Source: Nannobrachium achirus
Taxonomy: Eukaryota; Chordata; Actinopteri; Myctophiformes; Myctophidae
Reading direction: 5' to 3'
NCBI GenBank assembly: GCA_963921795.1
Contig: OY997643.1
Coordinates: 11,914,052-11,978,051, forward strand
Length of the DNA: 64,000 nt
Part shown: positions 19,686 through 34,955 of the stretch, piece after piece
Layout of the letters: each line of letters begins with the position of its first letter
Numbering within the stretch: the stretch's first letter is position 1
Position numbers and translations under genes: made by a program
Notes under the pieces: generated by a model
What the model was told of the DNA's origin: nothing
Database searches by the model: none
Seen by the model: only the letters and a program-made list of their open reading frames with translations

Positions 19686-19821
19686 ATTTGTGTACCTGGC
19701 TGTCTGTATAGACAACAGTGAATTACTAAAACACAAACATCATCAATTTAATTTAATTTCAGGATCATTCTGGTAATTGCTGTCATTTTATACAAGTGTG
19801 TTGTCTTTTCTGTCACAATAG

Positions 19822-19899
19822 ATGACCAGCATGAAGCTTCAAACACTGACCCACCAATGCAGGCTGCAACTTCAACAACTGATGTCTCTAAAGTTGAAG
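19822..19899 (+). CDS. PYD gene linker exon 2
   Basis: 78 bp, 26 codons, bounded by ACAATAG| and GAAG|GTGAGC. Joined in phase 1 to the PYD exon it encodes DDQHEASNTDPPMQAATSTT plus DVSKVE. It is phase 1-1 and can be repeated or skipped without changing frame. A near-identical copy is at 27668-27745. The product is a flexible Thr/Ser-rich linker with no recognised domain. Confidence 0.65.
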
Positions 19900-20263
19900 G
19901 TGAGCTGACACTATCAATGGATGTCTTTAATAAACTGATTAACCACTTGAACCCCAACATCTATATGCTGCTATGTGGCCGTCACATGTAGAATTCAGGC
20001 CTGATAACGTCATATATTGAGATCTCTGTATGTGTCTCATGTTTTAATTTCCCCCTTGGGGTCGGGTATGGTATGGTCTGGTTTGGGCAAAACTTGAGAA
20101 CTCTACTTTTCATCATCAAGTTATAAACAGTGACAACTGCTTTGACATGGGGGGGAGGGGGGCACGGTGCATTATAGTTTATCTCAATCACATCAAATAA
20201 AAGCAATCTAATGTCAGGATAATTATTGACAGCTAATAGAAGATTTCTGTTTTCTTTTCTGAT

Positions 20264-20462: not shown

Positions 20463-20466
20463 AAGG
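20463..20466. repeat. LTR element TSD (left)
   Basis: AAGG, repeated at 26581-26584. The unoccupied paralogous site has a single GCAAGGCCTG. Confidence 0.88.
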
Positions 20467-22348
20467 TGTAACCCTAGTTACGTAGTAGTAACAGGAAGTA
20501 CAGGTATGTAGTGTTCAATGGTGTATATCATTAACTGGACTAGTATCAGAAGTATTCTAAGTTTTTAAGAGCCAGTATTGCACATCAATAATGACACAGA
20601 CAACGATAAGCTGGAATAGTTGAATGGCCACTTGTATTACAAACAACATGAAATTACAACAAATACAATATATGGAAAATAATAAACAAAAAGAAAAGCC
20701 GGCAGAAATGTGAAACCCAAATGTTCCCAAAGTTTTAGATGTTAGTTATCGATCGATTTCGTTGGGGCCCTTTATCTGAGTCGCGGTATCGGTTTGAATC
20801 TCTTGGTCCTACCTCACTGTCCGTGAGGGAGGGGGATCACCATCAGTGTTCAGACTCTGGGTAGCTCGCCACCCCAGCACGAACTGGGGAATCAGTGGAT
20901 CTGGGGATCGGTGTCGATGGGTAAGGGAGACGGTCAAGCCTCACATACTGTACACCTGGCTCCTCAGTAGGTGAAATGAGAAGGGATGTCCTCTTCTCCA
21001 CACCAAGCTCCAGGGAATCGATGGTGGTTGGTTTCTAAATCACCCAAAAAACCTGACCTATAGTAGGTCAGACAAGATCCAATAGTATGTGTTATTCACA
21101 CACACCATGCAAACCATGTTTCTAAATCTTCATGAATTGGCATGAATTAATACCTTTTAACTTATATGAATTAACCCAAATCATGTCTTTTCATGACTTT
21201 GCAAGAATTGATATTTTGTAACTTATATCAATTAGGCCAATCATGTCTCTTCTTGTAATCATGTACTGTAAAAGCACATTGAAAACATCAAGAAATATCT
21301 AAAGCGCTTATATTCTTTTCACAGTCTTTTAAATATTCACTATATTCAATGAACTGTTTTCTTTTAACCCAAAAATAATTCTATGAAATGCTCCTTTAAT
21401 ATTCACAATAAATTGGGGTAAATTGCATTAAAGTGCATAAAAGTATCCAAATCAGTGTTTTTGTGCAGTACTCTGAGATATTAATGGCTCAAACATCTCT
21501 CCCTGGCTAGCAACAGGTGAGAGATGCACTAATTAACTCCTCAAACACTGAACCCAAAATACACACCTCTTCAGTGACAAACAATACAATAATCAGTGCT
21601 TTCAGCATGTAACATGTGCACAAAATAAATTCTGCCAACTTTGTGTGGCTAATACATCATAAACATCAGCATCAGTTTCATAAATCAACCATACAGTCAC
21701 ATTATTTCACTCACCGATGATCAAAGCAATCAAGGCACAGAATGCATTCACCTGGCTGGACGGTGAATTGCAACAACTCGGTCTCACACTGCTCTACAAA
21801 GTTAAAATGACACAATATTCACATCAGGAGTTGTCTAACAACGTTAGAAATGTGGATGTTTCGAAATGGAAGGTTATCTTTCATTCTTACCAAGCGGATG
21901 GCAAAAGATTGTCTCTCTGTGTACAACACCACATGGAATGCAGCAATGTGGTTCTGGCAGGAACAGGAAGTTCTCTGCTTATAAAGGACAGGAAGTCCAT
22001 CACTAAAGGGCTGGGCATAAGAAGCTCAGAGCTCAGTGATTGGCCACTTAGGATGGCAATCACAGAGCCAGGTAATTTTAACCTTTACTGACTCCTGCAA
22101 GACACCCTGTTTGTTTGTTTTTCAACCTTTTTTTCCTTCCATATTTTCAGCTTGTTCTTCATATTTTAACAACTTGTAGACAATGGAGCAGAGTATATCA
22201 GTATGACTTAAATGTATTAAATCAAAAAGCACTTGTTAAATCGTTTTTAGCACCTTGTAATTCAACTTAAAATGAACTTATTTATTCATCCCATTTTCTA
22301 TTTTCTCCATTTTAAATCCAGGCATGGTCATTTCAAGCCTGGGTTACA
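20467..22348 (-). repeat. LTR (3' LTR of the minus-strand element)
   Basis: 1882 bp, TGTAACCC...GGGTTACA. It contains a ~47-bp segment near 22022-22070 (AGCTCAGAGCTCAGTG...) absent from the other LTR and lacks that LTR's 10-bp CTCTGTGTTT duplication. CTTTATAAG on the minus strand (about 21978-21986) is a candidate TATA box. The reading frame of the element ends inside this LTR. Confidence 0.9.
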
Positions 22349-24705
22349 CCCTCCCCTCCTGAACTCATGTACGTCCCCGGACATGGCAACAGTCGCACAA
22401 TTATTATTTGAGGGGATGGGGCAGGGAAAATGTTCTCAACCTCATCAATCAAAGCATCGGCCAAAGCCGTAGTAAGGCCATGGAAGAAAGATTTCACGTG
22501 GAAGAAGGATTTAACCACTGTGTCCAAGGGATTTCCAACTTCGGCATAGTCAAGTCGCTCTGAGGGATGGCAACTTCTCTCCGATCTCCTGACAGAGACG
22601 GATACCTCCGTTTGTCCCTCTGTCTCCTCTTCAGTTGCTGCATCCGTTTCATCCAACTTGTCCATTATTTTCTCCTCAGATTCTACATTTCCAGTTCCAT
22701 CAGTCTCCTCTTCACTGTCTATGTCAGAGAGCACTGGAAGCTGTTCATTCTGGATATCGACAGCATCAGGTAAGTTTTCTCTTTCCACAGGGCATTCTCT
22801 TTCAGGTAGGTCACTGTTCTCGGTATCAGGTAAGTCACCATCATTTAGGTGTAGCACTTGTACTTGTTCAGTAGGAATTATTTCAGCAGATAAATACTCA
22901 GTGTCACCCTGATGGCAGGTAGGTTCGTTAGGCGTCAGGGGACTATCTGATGTACCATCAGACATATCAGGTGAGTTGTCAATTTCAGTACTACTATCAA
23001 CATCTTGGGCATTCACTGGACTCTCTGCGGAACATACGCCTGGAGGTACAGTATGCTGTGCATCTTGCTCAGTAGACATAGGTGGATCAGGCTGCACTGG
23101 TCTCTCATGGACCGTGGGGACCTGAGGATCCTGGGGCTCTCTGAACCAGTAGTCTGGAATACGATCATCATCATTAACTTCTTCCTCGGAAGAGTGATCG
23201 GCATCAGTGTTCTCATCAGTTGAGGTTGTCGCCTCAGGGTTCACGTCAAGTTCAGGAGGACTTGCTTCAGTTGAGTTCAAGTCAGAATGTACTACTGGAA
23301 CATTCTCAGGAAGAACTTTGGCTAGTTCTGGAGGGTTTTGCTCAACAGTTGATACTGGCATGGATCGTGACTCAGTGTTCTTTGTTCCAAATTTGACTGT
23401 TTCAGGGGCAAGACTGGAACTTGGGGTTTCCAATACTAGGTTTCCATGACTACAAAGGTAAGTGTAGCTTGCTTCGGGTTGGCTTCTGGATTGAACCGGC
23501 CTGCGGTATGGAGGATTGAATCTGCGCCTTAGTGGCCTCTGCTGGTCACCTCGTTGATCCGATTTCTGCTCTCCAACTTCCCCTTCTTTCACTACTTGTC
23601 TGGGTCTTTGAGGCCAGGGCCTACGAGGCCCGCTGCGTCGCGGCACAGGTTGCATGCCTTCATTATCAACATCGCTCTCCGAGGCAGAGCCAAGGCTGTC
23701 ACTCTGTGCGTTCTGATCATTCGGTGTGGAACCACGGGTAGAGGGACGGCGACGAAACCGTCGTTTATCGGATGCATAGCGGCTGCCTTTGACGGGAATC
23801 CCACCTGGACCTGTCACGTTGGCTGCTTTTGAGCCCTTTCTAGCTTCTATAACGTCAAACTCCACAATTTCTCCATCTCCCACACTGTGCACTAATTTTC
23901 TAGGATTGTTTTTCTTGATGGCCGTTTGATGGACAAACACGTCTTCTCTGGTGTCATTTCTGCTTATGAACCCATATCCGTTACGTACATTAAACCATTT
24001 CACTGTGCCGTGCACCGATGTAGCAATAATCCTTCTCTTCGGCTGTGACATTAACCGCCCGGTCATGTCACTTACAGAAAGTGGAGGGACTCTTCTTTCA
24101 ATATTGATCGGTACGGGGTCATTGACATTGGGGCCAATGTTTTTCTGAAGGGCATCTGAGAACGAAATGGGGGGCTGCTCATTGTGGGTAAGAAGCTGTG
24201 GGGTCTCAACAGTGGTCTCAACATGTGCAGTTGAGGCATCTTCGGTCACAGTGTTCATAGCTTCAATATCTTTGCCAATCTGGGACAACACTTCTTTCAA
24301 CACCCCTTCAAACTCATTACCACTTAGCTTAGCTAAGGTTTTAACCTTGGTCATGAAGGTTTTGGTAATGTCACCGCATAGTTCAGTAGTGTACACGCTA
24401 CTTAACGTCTTGACAGTATAAACACTGCCCTGTGCTGTGCGCTTTCTGTGTGGCAAAATTGCCGCTAAGTCTTCTACAGGTTCGCTGCTCGAGTATTCAA
24501 CGATCAGGTTTTGGTAAAATTGGGACGAATCATCAGTAACATAAAGGGACGTTTCGATATTGCCGTACTTTTTAAGAAAATCAATGACCTGGTCATCTTG
24601 TTCTGCTTCTCTGGTCAACCCGCTAACAATGACTGCATTTGGGATTTTCACACCAAACCTTTTCACAAAATCCATATTGGATGTAATTTCAGTATTGATA
24701 TGCAA
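22333..24705 (-). CDS. Gag-Y-box-Pol-tail fusion protein, 790 aa
   Basis: This is one uninterrupted frame. Residues ~11-150 ([54 protein letters not shown]) resemble the N-terminal, RRM-like Gag region of fish Gypsy/PNMA-type elements. No capsid or CCHC domain follows. Residues ~224-305 are a complete cold-shock domain very close to vertebrate YBX proteins: [19 protein letters not shown] with RNP1 (GYGFISR, 243-249) and RNP2 (VFVHQTAI, 256-263), then [16 protein letters not shown]. Residues ~315-410 carry Arg/Pro/Tyr-rich islands like the YBX C-terminal tail. Residues ~440-705 are acidic and presumably disordered. Residues ~706-790 ([20 protein letters not shown], then a hydrophobic stretch) resemble the C-terminus of fish Gypsy Pol; a 6-codon duplication (VKSFFH twice) lies here. 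The stop is within the LTR. The start may be residue 1 or the second Met (residue 11). The cold-shock domain has no introns, which implies capture from mRNA. The predicted role is nucleic-acid binding or RNA packaging. Confidence 0.85.
22349..22360 (-). other. Polypurine tract
   Basis: Minus strand AGGAGGGGAGGG immediately upstream of the 3' LTR, the expected plus-strand primer for reverse transcription. It overlaps the end of the coding frame. Confidence 0.8.
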
Positions 24706-24713
24706 ATTACTGG

Positions 24714-24731
24714 CTCCTGGCTAGCTCGCCA
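24714..24731 (-). other. Putative primer-binding site
   Basis: Five bases after the 5' LTR the minus strand reads TGGCGAGCTAGCCAGGAG. It starts TGG as expected for pairing with a tRNA 3' CCA end. I could not match it to a specific tRNA. Confidence 0.4.
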
Positions 24732-24735
24732 ATTC

Positions 24736-26580
24736 TGTAACCCTAGTTACGTAGTAGTAACAGGAAGTACAGGTATGTAGTGTTCAATGGTGTATATCAT
24801 TAACTGGACTAGTATCAGAAGTATTCTAAGTTTTTAAGAGCCAGTATTGCACATCAATAATGACACAGACAACGATAAGCTGGAATAGTTGAATGGCCAC
24901 TTGTATTACAAACAACATGAAATTACAACAAATACAATATATGGAAAATAACAATAACAAAAAGAAAAGCCGGCAGAAATGTGAAACCCAAATGTTCCCA
25001 AAGTTTTAGATGTTAGTTATCGATCGATTTCGTTGGGGCCCTTTATCTGAGTCGCGGTATCGGTTTGAATCTCTTGGTCCTACCTCACTGTCCGTGAGGG
25101 AGGGGGATCACCATCAGTGTTCAGACTCTGGGTAGCTCGCCACCCCAGCACGAACTGGGGAATCAGTGGATCTGGGGATCGGTGTCGATGGGTAAGGGAG
25201 ACGGTCAAGCCTCACATACTGTACACCTGGCTCCTCAGTAGGTGAAATGAGAAGGGATGTCCTCTTCTCCACACCAAGCTCCAGGGAATCGATGGTGGTT
25301 GGTTTCTAAATCACCCAAAAAACCTGACCTATAGTAGGTCAGACAAGATCCAATAGTATGTGTTATTCACACACACCATGCAAACCATGTTTCTAAATCT
25401 TCATGAATTGGCATGAATTAATACCTTTTAACTTATATGAATTAACCCAAATCATGTCTTTTCATGACTTTGCAAGAATTGATATTTTGTAACTTATATC
25501 AATTAGGCCAATCATGTCTCTTCTTGTAATCATGTACTGTAAAAGCACATTGAAAACATCAAGAAATATCTAAAGCGCTTATATTCTTTTCACAGTCTTT
25601 TAAATATTCACTATATTCAATGAACTGTTTTATTTTAACCCAAAAATAATTCTATGAAATGCTCCTTTAATATTCACAATAAATTGGGGTAAATTGCATT
25701 AAAGTGCATAAAAGTATCCAAATCAGTGTTTTTGTGCAGTACTCTGAGATATTAATGGCTCAAACATCTCTCCCTGGCTAGCAACAGGTGAGAGATGCAC
25801 TAATTAACTCCTCAAACACTGAACCCAAAATACACACCTCTTCAGTGACAAACAATACAATAATCAGTGCTTTCAGCATGTAACATGTGCACAAAATAAA
25901 TTCTGCCAACTTTGTGTGGCTAATACATCATAAACATCAGCATCAGTTTCATAAATCAACCATACAGTCACATTATTTCACTCACCGATGATCAAAGCAA
26001 TCAAGGCACAGAATGCATTCACCTGGCTGGACGGTGAATTGCAACAACTCGGTCTCACACTGCTCTACAAAGTTAAAATGACACAATATTCACATCAGGA
26101 GTTGTCTAACAACGTTAGAAATGTGGATGTTTCGAATGGAAGGTTATCTTTCATTCTTACCAAGCGGATGGCAAAAGATTGTCTCTCTGTGTTTCTCTGT
26201 GTACAACACCACATGGAATGCAGCAATGTGGTTCTGGCAGGAACAGGAAGTTCTATGCTTATAAAGGACAGGAAGTCCATCACTAAAGGGCTGGGCATAA
26301 GAAGTAATTTTAACCTTTACTGACTCCTGCAAGACACCCTGTTTGTTTGTTTTTCAACCTTTTTTTCCTTCCATATTTTCAGCTTGTTCTTCATATTTTA
26401 ACAACTTGTAGACAATGGAGTAGAGTATATCAGTATGACTTAAATGTATTAAATCAAAAAGCACTTGTTAAATCGTTTTTAGCACCTTGTAATTCAACTT
26501 AAAATGAACTTATTTATTCATCCCATTTTCTATTTTCTCCATTTTAAATCCAGGCATGGTCATTTCAAGCCTGGGTTACA
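24736..26580 (-). repeat. LTR (5' LTR of the minus-strand element)
   Basis: 1845 bp, near-identical to 20467-22348. A candidate TATA (CTTTATAAG) lies at 26258-26266 on the minus strand, about 320 bp into the LTR, which would give a short U3 and a long R-U5. The other frame visible here on the plus strand is not supported. Confidence 0.9.
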
Positions 26581-27121
26581 AAGGCCTGCGCATTATTTGT
26601 AAAGTCCTTTACAACTAATGTAGTGAGAGTAGAGGTCAGATCACCTGGCTCACAGGTGCAACCATTTTTCTAACAGTGAATCTACCGATGATATGGCCAT
26701 ACCGATATACTTACTTTCCCTCCTCTTTACATGTCCAAACCATCATAGTCTGGCCTCTGGCTTTATCCCCAAAACATCTGACATGTGATGTTAACTTACT
26801 CATTCCTGATCCTATTTTCAATTAATCAAAAAAATAATAAGAACATAATTCAGTTTCATTTTACACGCAGTCCTTTTCATATAGCCTAAATAAAAATATA
26901 CAGTATTGTGCATCTGAGGTGACGGAATACCTTTGAGAGTTGCAGGTCTGCTGCCATTACATTATTATCGTTTGTCTCTTACCTTTTACTCATTTGAGTG
27001 TCTGGTTATCTTCCCTGCTACAATAACAGTTAATAGCTAAAGGTCAAATAAAAGCAATCTAATGTCAGGATAATTATTGCCAGCTAATAGCAGGTTTCTG
27101 TTGTCTTTTCTGACACAATAG

Positions 27122-27187
27122 TTGTAACATCAGACCCACCAATGCCAGCATCAACTTCAACAAGTAGAGACATCTCGACGGCTGAAG
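27122..27187 (+). CDS. PYD gene linker exon 3
   Basis: 66 bp, 22 codons, phase 1-1, between ACAATAG| and GAAG|GTGAGC. It encodes VVTSDPPMPASTSTSRDIST plus AE, related to exon 2 (shared SDPPM/TDPPM core). It is copied at 36506-36571. These exons form a repeated DPPM-x-A-x-TST linker. Confidence 0.6.
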
Positions 27188-27273
27188 GTGAGCTGACAGT
27201 ATGAATAGATTGAACCACTTGAACCTCAACATCTCTAATCTGGGGGGAATATTATCCCAAAGAAAATTAGATA

Positions 27274-27320
27274 AACAAGCTCACAACGCATTGAAACATG
27301 CCACATTGTGAGCTTGTTGA
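27274..27320. repeat. Dispersed hairpin, copy 4
   Basis: AACAAGCTCACAACG ... CATTGTGAGCTTGTT with a short central loop, followed by GATCGTCTATTG. Duplicated at 36658-36705 as part of the exon duplication. Confidence 0.7.
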
Positions 27321-27667
27321 TCGTCTATTGTTGTTGACGAAGAGGTTTCGTGTAGACAAAAAATCTGTAACTGAGGTCCAGTTTAAAGGGTTGTTTCACA
27401 TTAAAAAATGTTTGGGGTCATTTTAGTGTCTATTCAGGGTTTTGCTTTTCACTCCAGATTTTTTAAGTTGCTTGTATTTAGACATTTGATATTTATTTTA
27501 TCAGACATGCCCCCTTCCTACACAAACTCGTTGTAACTTCACCATTTTAACCCTAACCCAACAGTGAATTACTAAAACACAAACATCATCAATTTAATTC
27601 AATATCAGGATAATTCAGGTAATTGCTGGTATTTTATACAAGTGTGTTGTCTTTTCTGTCACAATAG

Positions 27668-27745
27668 ATGACCAGCATGAAGCTTCAAACACTGACCCAC
27701 CAATGCAGGCTGCAACTTCAACAACTGATGTCTCTAAAGTTGAAG
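27668..27745 (+). CDS. PYD gene linker exon 4 (copy of exon 2)
   Basis: 78 bp, same splice borders as 19822-19899 and the same coding sequence by eye (DPPMQAATSTTDVSKVE). Phase 1-1, so it extends the linker in frame. It arose by the tandem duplication. Confidence 0.62.
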
Positions 27746-27855
27746 GTGAGCTGACACTATCAATGGATGTCTTTAATAAACTGATTAACCACTTGAACCC
27801 CAACATCTATATGCTGCTATGTGGCCGTCACATGTAGAATTCAGGCCTGATAACG

Positions 27856-27864
27856 TCATATATT
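27856..27864. repeat. Fold-back element TSD (left)
   Basis: TCATATATT, identical to 35504-35512; single copy at the empty paralogous site 20010-20018. Confidence 0.88.
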
Positions 27865-30206: not shown

Positions 30207-31120
<914 letters not shown>

Positions 31121-31175
31121 GAGGACAGCACAGGACAGGGAGAGAAAACACACACCTGATAAGAGCCAGATTCAC

Positions 31176-33251: not shown

Positions 33252-34488
33252 TAATAATAATAATAATAATAAAGCTTTATTTGTATAGCACCTTTCATGA
33301 CATGAAATGCAGCTCAAAGTGCTTTACAGAGCAGAAAATGAAGCACAGTTACTTAACAGAAAAAATAAAATACACATGAATACAATAAAGCAGAACAATA
33401 AAAACATAAAACATTGAAGAACAATTTCAGAACAGTGTGGACGTCAATAGCATCAAAGAGATAAAAAAAATAATTCAGCTAAAAGCAAGAGTAAAGAAAT
33501 AGGTCTTGAGCTGTGCTTTAAAGCTATCCACAGAGGCTGCCTGTCTTAGGTATAGTGGGAGTTTATTCCAAACTGTCGGTCCGTAGAAGCAGAAAGCTGC
33601 TTCACCATATTTTTTATATTTCATTTTAGGCACATCAAGTAGGTCAGCACTAGAAGACCTGAGTGGGCGGTTTGGAACGTATCTATGCAGGCAGTCATAG
33701 AGGTACGAAGGTGCCAGACCATTTAGAGCTTTATAAACAAGTAAAATAATTTTAAAATCAATCCTAAAAACAACCGGGAGCCAGTGTAGCGACGCTAAGA
33801 CTGGAGTAATATGTTCTCTCATCTTAGCTTTAGTTAAAACTCTGGCTGCCGCATTTTGAACAAGTTGCAAACTGTCAGTTGTTTTCTTTGGCAGACCAGA
33901 GAGAAGTGCGTTGCAGTAATCAAGCCGAGAGAAAACAAAAGCGTGGATCAGCGTTTTTGCATCGTCCAATGTTAGATAGGCTCTAATTCGCGCAATATTT
34001 CTAAGGTGAAAGAAGGCAATCTTGGTGACATGATTAATGTGTGTATTAAAATTCAATTCAGCGTCAATGATCACTCCCAGGTTCTTTACAGAAGTGTTAC
34101 TTTCTTTAGACAGGTTACCAAGTCTACTTATTATTGATTCTCTCTGCGCAGTAGAACCAATTATGAGAACTTCTGTCTTGTCCTCATTTAGTTTGAGAAA
34201 GTTCTCACTCATCCAGCATTTTATGCTAGACACACACATCAGCAATGGGTCTAGAGCACAGGGGTCGTCCGGAGCTACCGAAAGGTACAGCTGGGTGTCA
34301 TCAGCATAGAAATGGAAATTCACACCGTGAGCGGAAATAAGTTCTCCCAGCGGCAGTATATAGAGGGAGAATAATAAAGGACCAAGAATTGAGCCCTGTG
34401 GAATACCAGAGCAGATGTTGTGTTTGTTTGACTCAAAGTCAGCTAGATTAACAAAGTAGCTTCTGCCTGTTAGGTAGGAGTAAAACCA
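33252..34488 (-). mobile_element. 5'-truncated L2/CR1-like LINE
   Basis: Present in the right arm only, inserted in a GATA tract. The minus strand ends in an L2-type 3' tail: AAAGCACTTTGAGCTGCATT, TGAAAGGTGCTATACAAATA, then ATTATT repeats. The insertion postdates formation of the inverted repeat. Confidence 0.82.
33475..34488 (-). pseudogene. LINE reverse transcriptase, C-terminal ~340 residues
   Basis: This is an open frame from a 5'-truncated LINE. It contains RT motifs SGIPQGSILGPLLFSLYI and FHFYADDTQLYLS (catalytic YADD), the thumb block LKLNEDKTEVLIIG, NLGVIIDAELNF, the C-terminal SRLDYCNALLSGLP and LASLHWLPV segments, and GPTVWNKLP near the end. The order and wording match fish L2/CR1-group LINEs. 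The endonuclease and N-terminal RT motifs are missing, and the apparent start codons lie in the GATA repeat. No frameshift is seen in the remaining 340 residues, so insertion is fairly recent. The product would not be functional alone. Confidence 0.88.
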
Positions 34489-34489
34489 G

Positions 34490-34530
<41 letters not shown>
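34488..34530. repeat. (GATA)n tract
   Basis: GATA repeats flanking the LINE; further tracts at 33217-33252 and 34942-34997. Confidence 0.9.
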
Positions 34531-34531
<1 letters not shown>

Positions 34532-34955
34532 GTCACTTAATGACAATTATAATAATTTGTGAGCCTACACACTCACACACAGACCCTAAAAGCCAGCAAA
34601 ATGAAATACTACCTAAGTTAACCTTAACTTGTGTCAGACTTGAATTCAAATGCAAGAGCAGCTTTATATAAATGTAGTAGTAGTAGTGTTATGAGAGGGA
34701 AGGTGATGTTTGTTCAGACTAGCAGGGACTTAGGTGGGACAGTTAACAAAGCTAACAAAGCATTATCCAGTTTCTGTCTATTGTTGATCCCTCCCCCCAC
34801 CACCACCCTGATTGGTCCATCAGAGTCATTTTGAGTATTTAACATAGCCCTGTTTTAGCTCCATGACACAGTCATGACACAGTTCCATGTGTGCAAGTTC
34901 CTGATGCTGAACTCTCTTCTGGACTAAAGGTGAAGTATAAATAAATAGATGGATG

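Follow-up and report, generated by a model that had tools for sequence, protein, structure and literature searches.

A non-autonomous Ty3/Gypsy-type retroelement of Nannobrachium achirus carries spliced host ybx2 mRNA in place of capsid and Pol enzymes

Introduction

We analyzed 64,000 nucleotides of Nannobrachium achirus DNA (contig OY997643.1, positions 11,914,052 to 11,978,051), here called the window, and describe a long terminal repeat (LTR) element at window positions 20467-26580 in which a copy of the host Y-box gene ybx2 stands between remnants of retroelement Gag and Pol proteins. Replacement of viral genes by host mRNA is familiar from the oncogene-transducing retroviruses, which need a helper. 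Host-mRNA capture by LTR elements is known also under purifying selection: crocodilian endogenous retroviruses (ERVs) captured the KIT-ligand and nectin3 mRNAs, and the captured genes are found in several copies (PMC4299795). For maize Bs1 and for the LTR-mediated retrocopies of animals, zebrafish included, the mechanism given is that the template switches between RNA of the LTR element and mRNA of the cell (PMC5408686). A survey of zebrafish ERVs describes LTR-bounded cellular genes and 71 PNMA-domain gag genes, and names fga, ddx41, ftr35, igl1c3 and tbk1 (PMC8672886).

Two described Gag types are of particular relevance. The Gag of PNMA-type metaviruses consists of an RNA-binding domain, a capsid and a nucleocapsid, and the role of its RRM-like domain is called unknown (PMC11011659). 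The zebrafish elements BHIKHARI-1 and BHIKHARI-2 (crestin) have a lokiretrovirus Gag with a coiled coil, a capsid and a Gly-rich patch (PMC10996621). Y-box proteins of the host, in turn, reportedly aid retroviruses by way of their RNA: YB-1 supports human immunodeficiency virus RNA levels, and it regulates murine leukemia virus vector and mouse mammary tumor virus production in an RNA-dependent manner (PMC6040738). In the oocyte, the Y-box protein form MSY2 protects stored mRNA and compacts mRNA into protected particles (PMC7226217).

Structure of the element

The element in the window is a non-autonomous Ty3/Gypsy-type element in which spliced host ybx2 mRNA substitutes for capsid, zinc knuckle, reverse transcriptase (RT) and integrase; the protease was presumably also lost in the replaced interval. 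It lies on the minus strand and is complete as an LTR element, with a target-site duplication (TSD), a primer-binding site (PBS), a polypurine tract (PPT) and one long frame. An earlier sequence-only reading of this DNA had described near-identical LTRs, a 4-bp TSD and a PPT, all of which we located by coordinates; the LTR pair differs by 4 substitutions over ~1,847 aligned columns, besides 13 gap columns and a 47-base difference. Both LTRs start with TGTAACCC and finish with GGGTTACA, ends that are inverted and so the same on either strand. Equally real is the single 790-codon frame with a complete cold-shock domain (CSD) that the same reading had reported.

In what follows, C1, C2, C3, C4, C6, C8, C14, C15, C16, C17, C20, C22, C23 and C433 denote contigs of the same assembly, the window being on C6; backbone A is the window type and backbone B the C15/C22 type. 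The features of the element, in window positions, are:

20463..20466, no strand: left copy of the TSD AAGG, from sequence reading
20467..22348, minus: 3' LTR, TG...CA, from self-comparison and sequence reading, with copies elsewhere in the genome
22333..24705, minus: single open frame, 790 codons counted from TTG; likely start at ATG 24675-24673, final codons inside the 3' LTR
22345..23208, minus: own-type (A) Pol C-terminal tail, residues 500-787, by protein similarity to relatives
22349..22360, minus: PPT AGGAGGGGAGGG, adjoining the 3' LTR; 10 of 12 bases shared with the C4 relative
23251..23463, minus: B-type (C15/C22) Pol tail stretch, which arrived with the cassette; 60% over 72 residues to the L089 Pol tail
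23467..24050, minus: captured ybx2 cassette, CSD and Arg-rich region, spliced across host introns
23809..24012, minus: CSD, residues 232-299; Pfam CSD E=1.5e-22, zebrafish YB-1 6a6j 7.4e-46
24051..24067, minus: 17 bases of unclear origin between the Gag N-terminal region and the cassette
24068..24375, minus: remainder of the Gag N-terminus; unfused relatives are similar in DNA as far as 24068
24376..24675, minus: RRM-like N-terminal domain of PNMA-type Gag, residues 11-110, by protein similarity and fold search
24714..24731, minus: PBS TGGCGAGCTAGCCAGGAG, identical in the C4 relative
24736..26580, minus: 5' LTR, from self-comparison and sequence reading
26581..26584, no strand: right copy of the TSD AAGG, from sequence reading

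In the Pfam search of the frame the CSD alone was above the cut-off, and no match to RT, RNaseH, integrase, PF14893 or CCHC was obtained; the N-terminus, mid part and tail searched as separate pieces gave nothing above the cut-off. The element is hence not a full Ty3/Gypsy member but a non-autonomous derivative, which has the LTRs, TSD, PBS and PPT and lacks RT, RNaseH and integrase of its own. Likewise, of the PNMA-type Gag it has the RRM-like N-terminal domain and neither the PNMA capsid nor the zinc knuckle.

Copy number and integrations

A CSD search of the assembly gave 29 matches, 12 of them in stop-free long retroelement frames. The DNA search with the Gag N-terminus recovered 11 window-type copies at 95-100% identity (19/19 candidates scored). 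These 11 A copies were found again with the cassette of the C22 fusion element, together with C22 itself, six host-gene pieces and two weaker intronless Y-box matches (16/16 candidates scored); this DNA search of the assembly yielded no further, decayed cassettes. The 12 fusion copies, 11 of type A plus C22, exclude a one-off chimera, a possibility that the sequence-only reading had raised.

The A copies are distributed over seven loci: the window, C6:60.3 Mb (two, in tandem), C17 (two), C20 (three), C8, C1 and C433. Their frames are open in all 11 cases (767-796 codons), as is the C22 frame. Each locus has its own perfect 4-bp TSD (AAGG, CATC, ATAG, CTTG, CATG, CTTG and TAGT), and the seven loci therefore represent seven integrations. 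LTR pairs were compared at four of the seven loci; besides the window, they are 100% identical on C1, 99.95% on C8 and 99.8% on C433. The A-type element has spread recently. LTR counts are lower bounds, as the LTR search scored the best 40 of 103 candidates.

Three of the loci are tandem arrays of Y-box elements with shared LTRs, each within one 4-bp TSD:

C20:53229970-53244661: three interiors
C17:33408314-33418879: two interiors
C6:60323975-60334922: two interiors

At C8:49092293-49117898, four Gag starts lie ~8.4 kb apart, perhaps another tandem array.

Gag and Pol remnants and their unfused relatives

Both ends of the fusion protein match retroelement proteins, contrary to the lack of such similarity that would have refuted the sequence-only reading. 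In the protein search the N-terminus matches PNMA-type Gags at up to 69%, and the best named fish record at 63%. The fold search with the N-terminus returned mostly RRM-type domains; a separate sequence search of the PDB with the N-terminus had a best E of 0.61. The tail matches a tuna Gypsy-type Pol (55% over 74%). By tblastn, relatives on C4, C14 and C16 have gag and pol sequences that correspond to the N-terminus and tail of the fusion protein; a DNA search adds N-terminus matches on C23, C22 and C17, and DNA similarity to the unfused relatives ends before the capsid. These matches indicate Ty3/Gypsy (metavirus-like) descent, the Pol being typed by domain make-up: the C4 relative has open gag and pol frames with the Pfam domains PNMA, CCHC, RVT_1, RNaseH, H2C2 and rve. 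The sequence-only reading had suggested looking for an autonomous partner with matching LTRs: autonomous-type relatives with LTRs of 77% identity exist, and that on C4 shares the PBS.

The RRM-type Gag N-terminus is abundant genome-wide, with 114 matches to that of C22, many in open frames of 560-600 codons (150/150 candidates scored). The Pol of the unfused relatives L019-L024 has 89-95% protein identity to tuna record P0043 across RT and integrase, values that would be compatible with the autonomous family having been transferred horizontally.

The donor gene

The cassette donor is the host's own split ybx2, as judged from exon structure and phylogeny. This gene, named by homology, is located at C14:30.700-30.705 Mb and split into exons. 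Compared exon by exon, the C22 cassette includes ~60 bases of the 5' untranslated region (5'UTR) and exons 1-6 and runs into exon 7, the introns being absent; DNA identity lies at 86-94% for exons 1-6, and the 43 matching bases of exon 7 are 84% identical. A tree was built from 37 fish YBX2 proteins, to which the host gene and eight element rows were added; in it, host plus elements are grouped at 100/100 and the elements at 99/92, with host ybx2 on the acanthomorph side. The trees used either 37 of the 118 listed YBX-type rows or, as a quick tree, all 118 with 3 element rows. The quick tree, with its label read after re-rooting, sets host ybx2 beside Merluccius, Lota and Gadus (Shimodaira-Hasegawa-like approximate likelihood ratio test, SH-aLRT, 99), a fork that the careful tree leaves open. 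The protein search with the cassette, limited to the best 120 of 1573 matches, gave mainly fish YBX2 among the matches listed, the two top-scoring rows being rotifer-type multi-domain proteins at 43-47% identity.

By its CSD, its basic/acidic C-terminal region and its nearest relatives, the cassette is identified as a vertebrate Y-box protein of the YBX2 type, though not complete to the C-terminus, since it ends in host exon 7. As the copy of the split host gene has no introns and lies between LTRs at several sites, the element is a host-gene-transducing retroelement. The sequence-only reading was therefore right that the domain is intronless, and right that YBX-type mRNA had recombined into a Gypsy-like element with loss of capsid through integrase; the tree with host YBX genes that it had called for adds the host's own ybx2 on C14 as the donor.

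YBX1 was considered as a donor and rejected, the intronless YBX1-like retrocopies being distant from the cassette in a tree with bootstrap not settled. Capture in another fish followed by horizontal transfer was dropped once host ybx2 had been found and grouped with the cassette. A first tree without the host gene had set the element beside acanthomorph YBX2; forcing it with cypriniforms gave an approximately unbiased (AU) test p of 0.006, and with Otophysi p 0.057.

Outside the element family the genome contains further intronless Y-box copies, YBX1-like by eye (C17:21715661, C2:28509441, C15:35742970 and C8:55207312). Two other open frames without introns between their CSD matches are CSDE1-like retrocopies by guess: 663 codons with four matches at C14:23482496-23484169 (minus strand), and 403 codons with two matches at C3:59533967-59534644 (plus strand).

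One capture and two backbones

The C15 element, nearest to C22 among the unfused relatives, shows both junctions as they are without the fusion; it retains PNMA capsid, RT and integrase regions and has a broken gag frame. The C22 and C15 LTRs are 99.5% identical over 1,046 bases, followed by 753 bases at 95%. At the left junction C22 and C15 agree at 95% until C22 becomes ybx2 5'UTR; at the right junction C22 exits host exon 7 and enters the C15-type Pol tail, with no poly(A) seen at this joint. Two features recur in the window family and in C22: an insertion of five residues in the Arg-rich region, and one and the same joint to the C15-type Pol tail. Found in both backbones, they indicate a single capture. 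Measured on the 686 positions of the C22 cassette, every one of the 11 A cassettes runs from 113 to 684.

Synonymous divergence (Ks) between A and C22 is 0.37-0.62 in the CSD and Arg-rich part and 0.61-0.79 in the mid part. For the N-terminus, by contrast, Ks is about 2 or at saturation, and the tail is saturated, so the N-terminus and final tail of A belong to another lineage than those of C22. A frameshifted YBX2 as the source of the mid region was rejected, since no other frame matched convincingly; the region consists of B-type Pol tail, and the own-type relatives L019-L024 match the stretch 23251-23463 only with E above 3.

Sequence comparison thus strongly supports, as the simplest history, that the cassette was captured once, in backbone B, with a span from the 5'UTR into exon 7, and that it was transferred once to backbone A at a later point, together with part of the B-type Pol tail. 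The window-family cassette is shortened and was most likely passed between backbones, the direction from B to A being judged from the fuller cassette of C22 and the B-type tail in A. Capture by a Gypsy-like element, as claimed in the sequence-only reading, therefore stands in refined form: the fullest capture is in the C22/C15 backbone, from which it most likely reached that of the window.

Selection on the fusion protein

We used seven of the 11 A copies for the polymorphism test, leaving out L002, L006, L007 and L029, tandem partners of used copies. The ratio of nonsynonymous to synonymous polymorphism (pN/pS) is lowest in the CSD, at 0.12 (11 nonsynonymous and 28 synonymous changes, Fisher p 4e-13), followed by the RRM-like domain (0.24, p 0.006) and the Arg-rich part (0.49, p 0.008). 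The values are higher in the rest of the N-terminus (0.64, p 0.14), the tail (0.67, p 0.06) and the mid part (0.76, p 0.62). From host to C22, the nonsynonymous to synonymous divergence ratio (Ka/Ks) of the CSD is 0.09. Because constraint is strongest on the CSD and RRM, the fusion protein is probably used, with its predicted RNA-binding parts mattering most.

Neighboring features

Direct repeats flank the element at window positions 19713-20262 and 27044-27858 (98% over 300 bases and 94% over 70). Further features of the window are a C2H2 zinc-finger frame (30609-31175, minus strand) and a reverse-transcriptase fragment (RVT_1; 33475-34536, minus strand), by guess of the long interspersed nuclear element (LINE) type.

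Proposed mechanism and alternative explanations

The best explanation overall, to which we assign a probability of roughly 0.78, is a helper-dependent, non-autonomous Gypsy-type derivative with spliced ybx2, captured by backbone B and moved to backbone A, whose protein would escort RNA. Capture and transfer probably both occurred when reverse transcriptase switched templates between RNAs packaged together. An LTR element without particle and cDNA-synthesis domains must borrow enzymes; since this element lacks such domains of its own and keeps the cis signals, autonomous relatives would be the natural source, and it probably moves with the enzymes and shell of RRM-PNMA-Pol relatives. There is an about even chance that the RRM-CSD-Arg-rich protein acts as an RNA escort: in germ cells it would coat and protect the RNA of the element, much as YBX2 does with oocyte mRNA, and its Gag-like N-terminal domain, common to the helper, could attach the complex to helper Gag and bring this RNA into helper particles. 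A broader proposal, which we hold tentatively and at slightly worse than even odds, is that of a transmissible Y-box module: capsid and nucleocapsid would have been given up, a host germline messenger ribonucleoprotein component joined to the Gag RRM-like domain would form an RNA-packaging protein, and this module would be passed between families by recombination and retained by selection for making the RNA more stable, or for better packaging by a helper, in germ cells.

Several observations weigh against this explanation. Among the three relatives looked into, those on C16 and C14 are broken and only C4 has open gag and pol. The nearest unfused A-type relatives are just 83-85% identical in gag N-terminal DNA and 77% in the LTR, so that the actual helper may be another element. 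The Ty3/Gypsy label stands on domain make-up, RNA binding by the fusion protein is predicted, and all copies are drawn from one genome. The Fisher tests treat sites as independent, while the copies are related and have probably recombined. Finally, the CSD DNA (23809-24012; also in L001, L005 and L025-L027) is a local peak of synonymous variation with unexplained cause: L005 and L027 differ at 11/258 positions in the CSD stretch and at 2/495 in the N-terminus. At 37 of the 39 variable CSD sites at least one copy still has the host ybx2 base, in patterns that conflict with one another, as though old lineages of the cassette had been shuffled. CpG decay was rejected as the cause, as only 11 of the 28 synonymous changes are CpG-type transitions.

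The ybx2 piece could instead be a neutral scar of template switching, the RNA moving by helper proteins and its own protein idle. The retained PBS, PPT and LTR would be enough for such movement in trans, and the tail and mid parts are without significant constraint; however, the open frames of all 11 A copies and of C22, the lack of decayed copies in the cassette DNA search and the low ratios in the CSD and RRM make an idle protein improbable. The fusion might also be retained mainly for host benefit, as proposed for the gag-only BHIKHARI of zebrafish, a precedent of non-autonomous elements whose protein is important in embryos (PMC10996621). Several intact frames would agree with this; still, seven loci with their own TSDs, and near-identical LTRs at the four compared, reflect the behavior of a mobile element, and we regard co-option as unlikely. 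A capsid-less Gag piece that hinders autonomous relatives or host silencing, with no RNA escort, would fit the kept Gag N-terminal domain and the loss of capsid, and domesticated PNMA genes without capsid exist (PMC11011659), yet by itself it leaves the strongest constraint, that on the CSD, unexplained; its probability is low.

Two further scenarios concern the origin of the cassette. A LINE-made ybx2 retrocopy might have landed inside a Gypsy element, given that intronless Y-box retrocopies are present in the genome; but the right junction is without poly(A), capsid through integrase is missing exactly at the cassette, and no copy with full gag-pol and a TSD-flanked cassette was found in the C22-cassette DNA search, all of which renders a nested insertion very improbable. 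Capture in another fish before arrival here seemed suggested by the tree without the host gene, where the cassette lay beside acanthomorph YBX2 and a cypriniform origin was rejected. Host ybx2 lies there too, however, grouped with the cassette at 100/100, which leaves this scenario with hardly any probability. The helper-dependent derivative with a captured ybx2 of its own host thus remains our preferred explanation.

Comparison with known systems

Among the top-ranked open-licence literature, no LTR element with a Y-box or cold-shock gene was found, though a catalogued consensus may exist in Repbase. The words 'cold shock', 'Y-box' and 'CSD' have no match in PMC10996621, nor have 'cold' and 'Y-box' in PMC8672886; the available parts of PMC9341512 and PMC12006353 contain nothing on cold-shock genes. 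The new architecture proposed in the sequence-only reading therefore holds for the Y-box module replacing capsid, which was not found in the top-ranked literature searched, and not for host-gene capture by LTR elements as such, which was already known.

An element with a captured Y-box gene, its capsid lost, its CSD nearly unchanged and its tail drifting is a natural experiment on what retroelements need for RNA protection and packaging, and gives the RRM-like domain of PNMA-type Gags a testable setting. The intact Y-box part in young copies suggests that the stolen protein aids the spread of the element, and the presence of a single cassette in two backbones illustrates how a gene, once captured, can turn into a shared module of a retroelement community.

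The oncogene-transducing retroviruses differ in their cargo: here there is no growth gene, and an RNA-binding module occupies the Gag position. For Bs1 and the LTR-mediated retrocopies the same mechanism is proposed, and the available account has no Y-box gene (PMC5408686). With BHIKHARI the element shares the trait of a young non-autonomous LTR element with one Gag-type protein; the lokiretrovirus Gag of ~617 residues is described with a coiled coil and a capsid, where the frame found here has an RRM-like domain and a CSD. As in the zebrafish ERV survey, the interior of an LTR element has been replaced by a host gene (PMC8672886). The crocodilian ERVs are similar to the window family in carrying host mRNA in an LTR element, in multiple copies and under purifying selection; there, however, a ligand was added or a receptor-type gene took the place of env, whereas here an RNA-binding protein replaces capsid through integrase and the cassette occurs in two backbones. 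With the PNMA-type metaviruses, finally, the element shares the Gag plan and the RRM-like N-terminal domain, and its unfused relatives in this genome are of that kind, but in the window element the host Y-box cassette stands where they have capsid, CCHC and the Pol enzymes.

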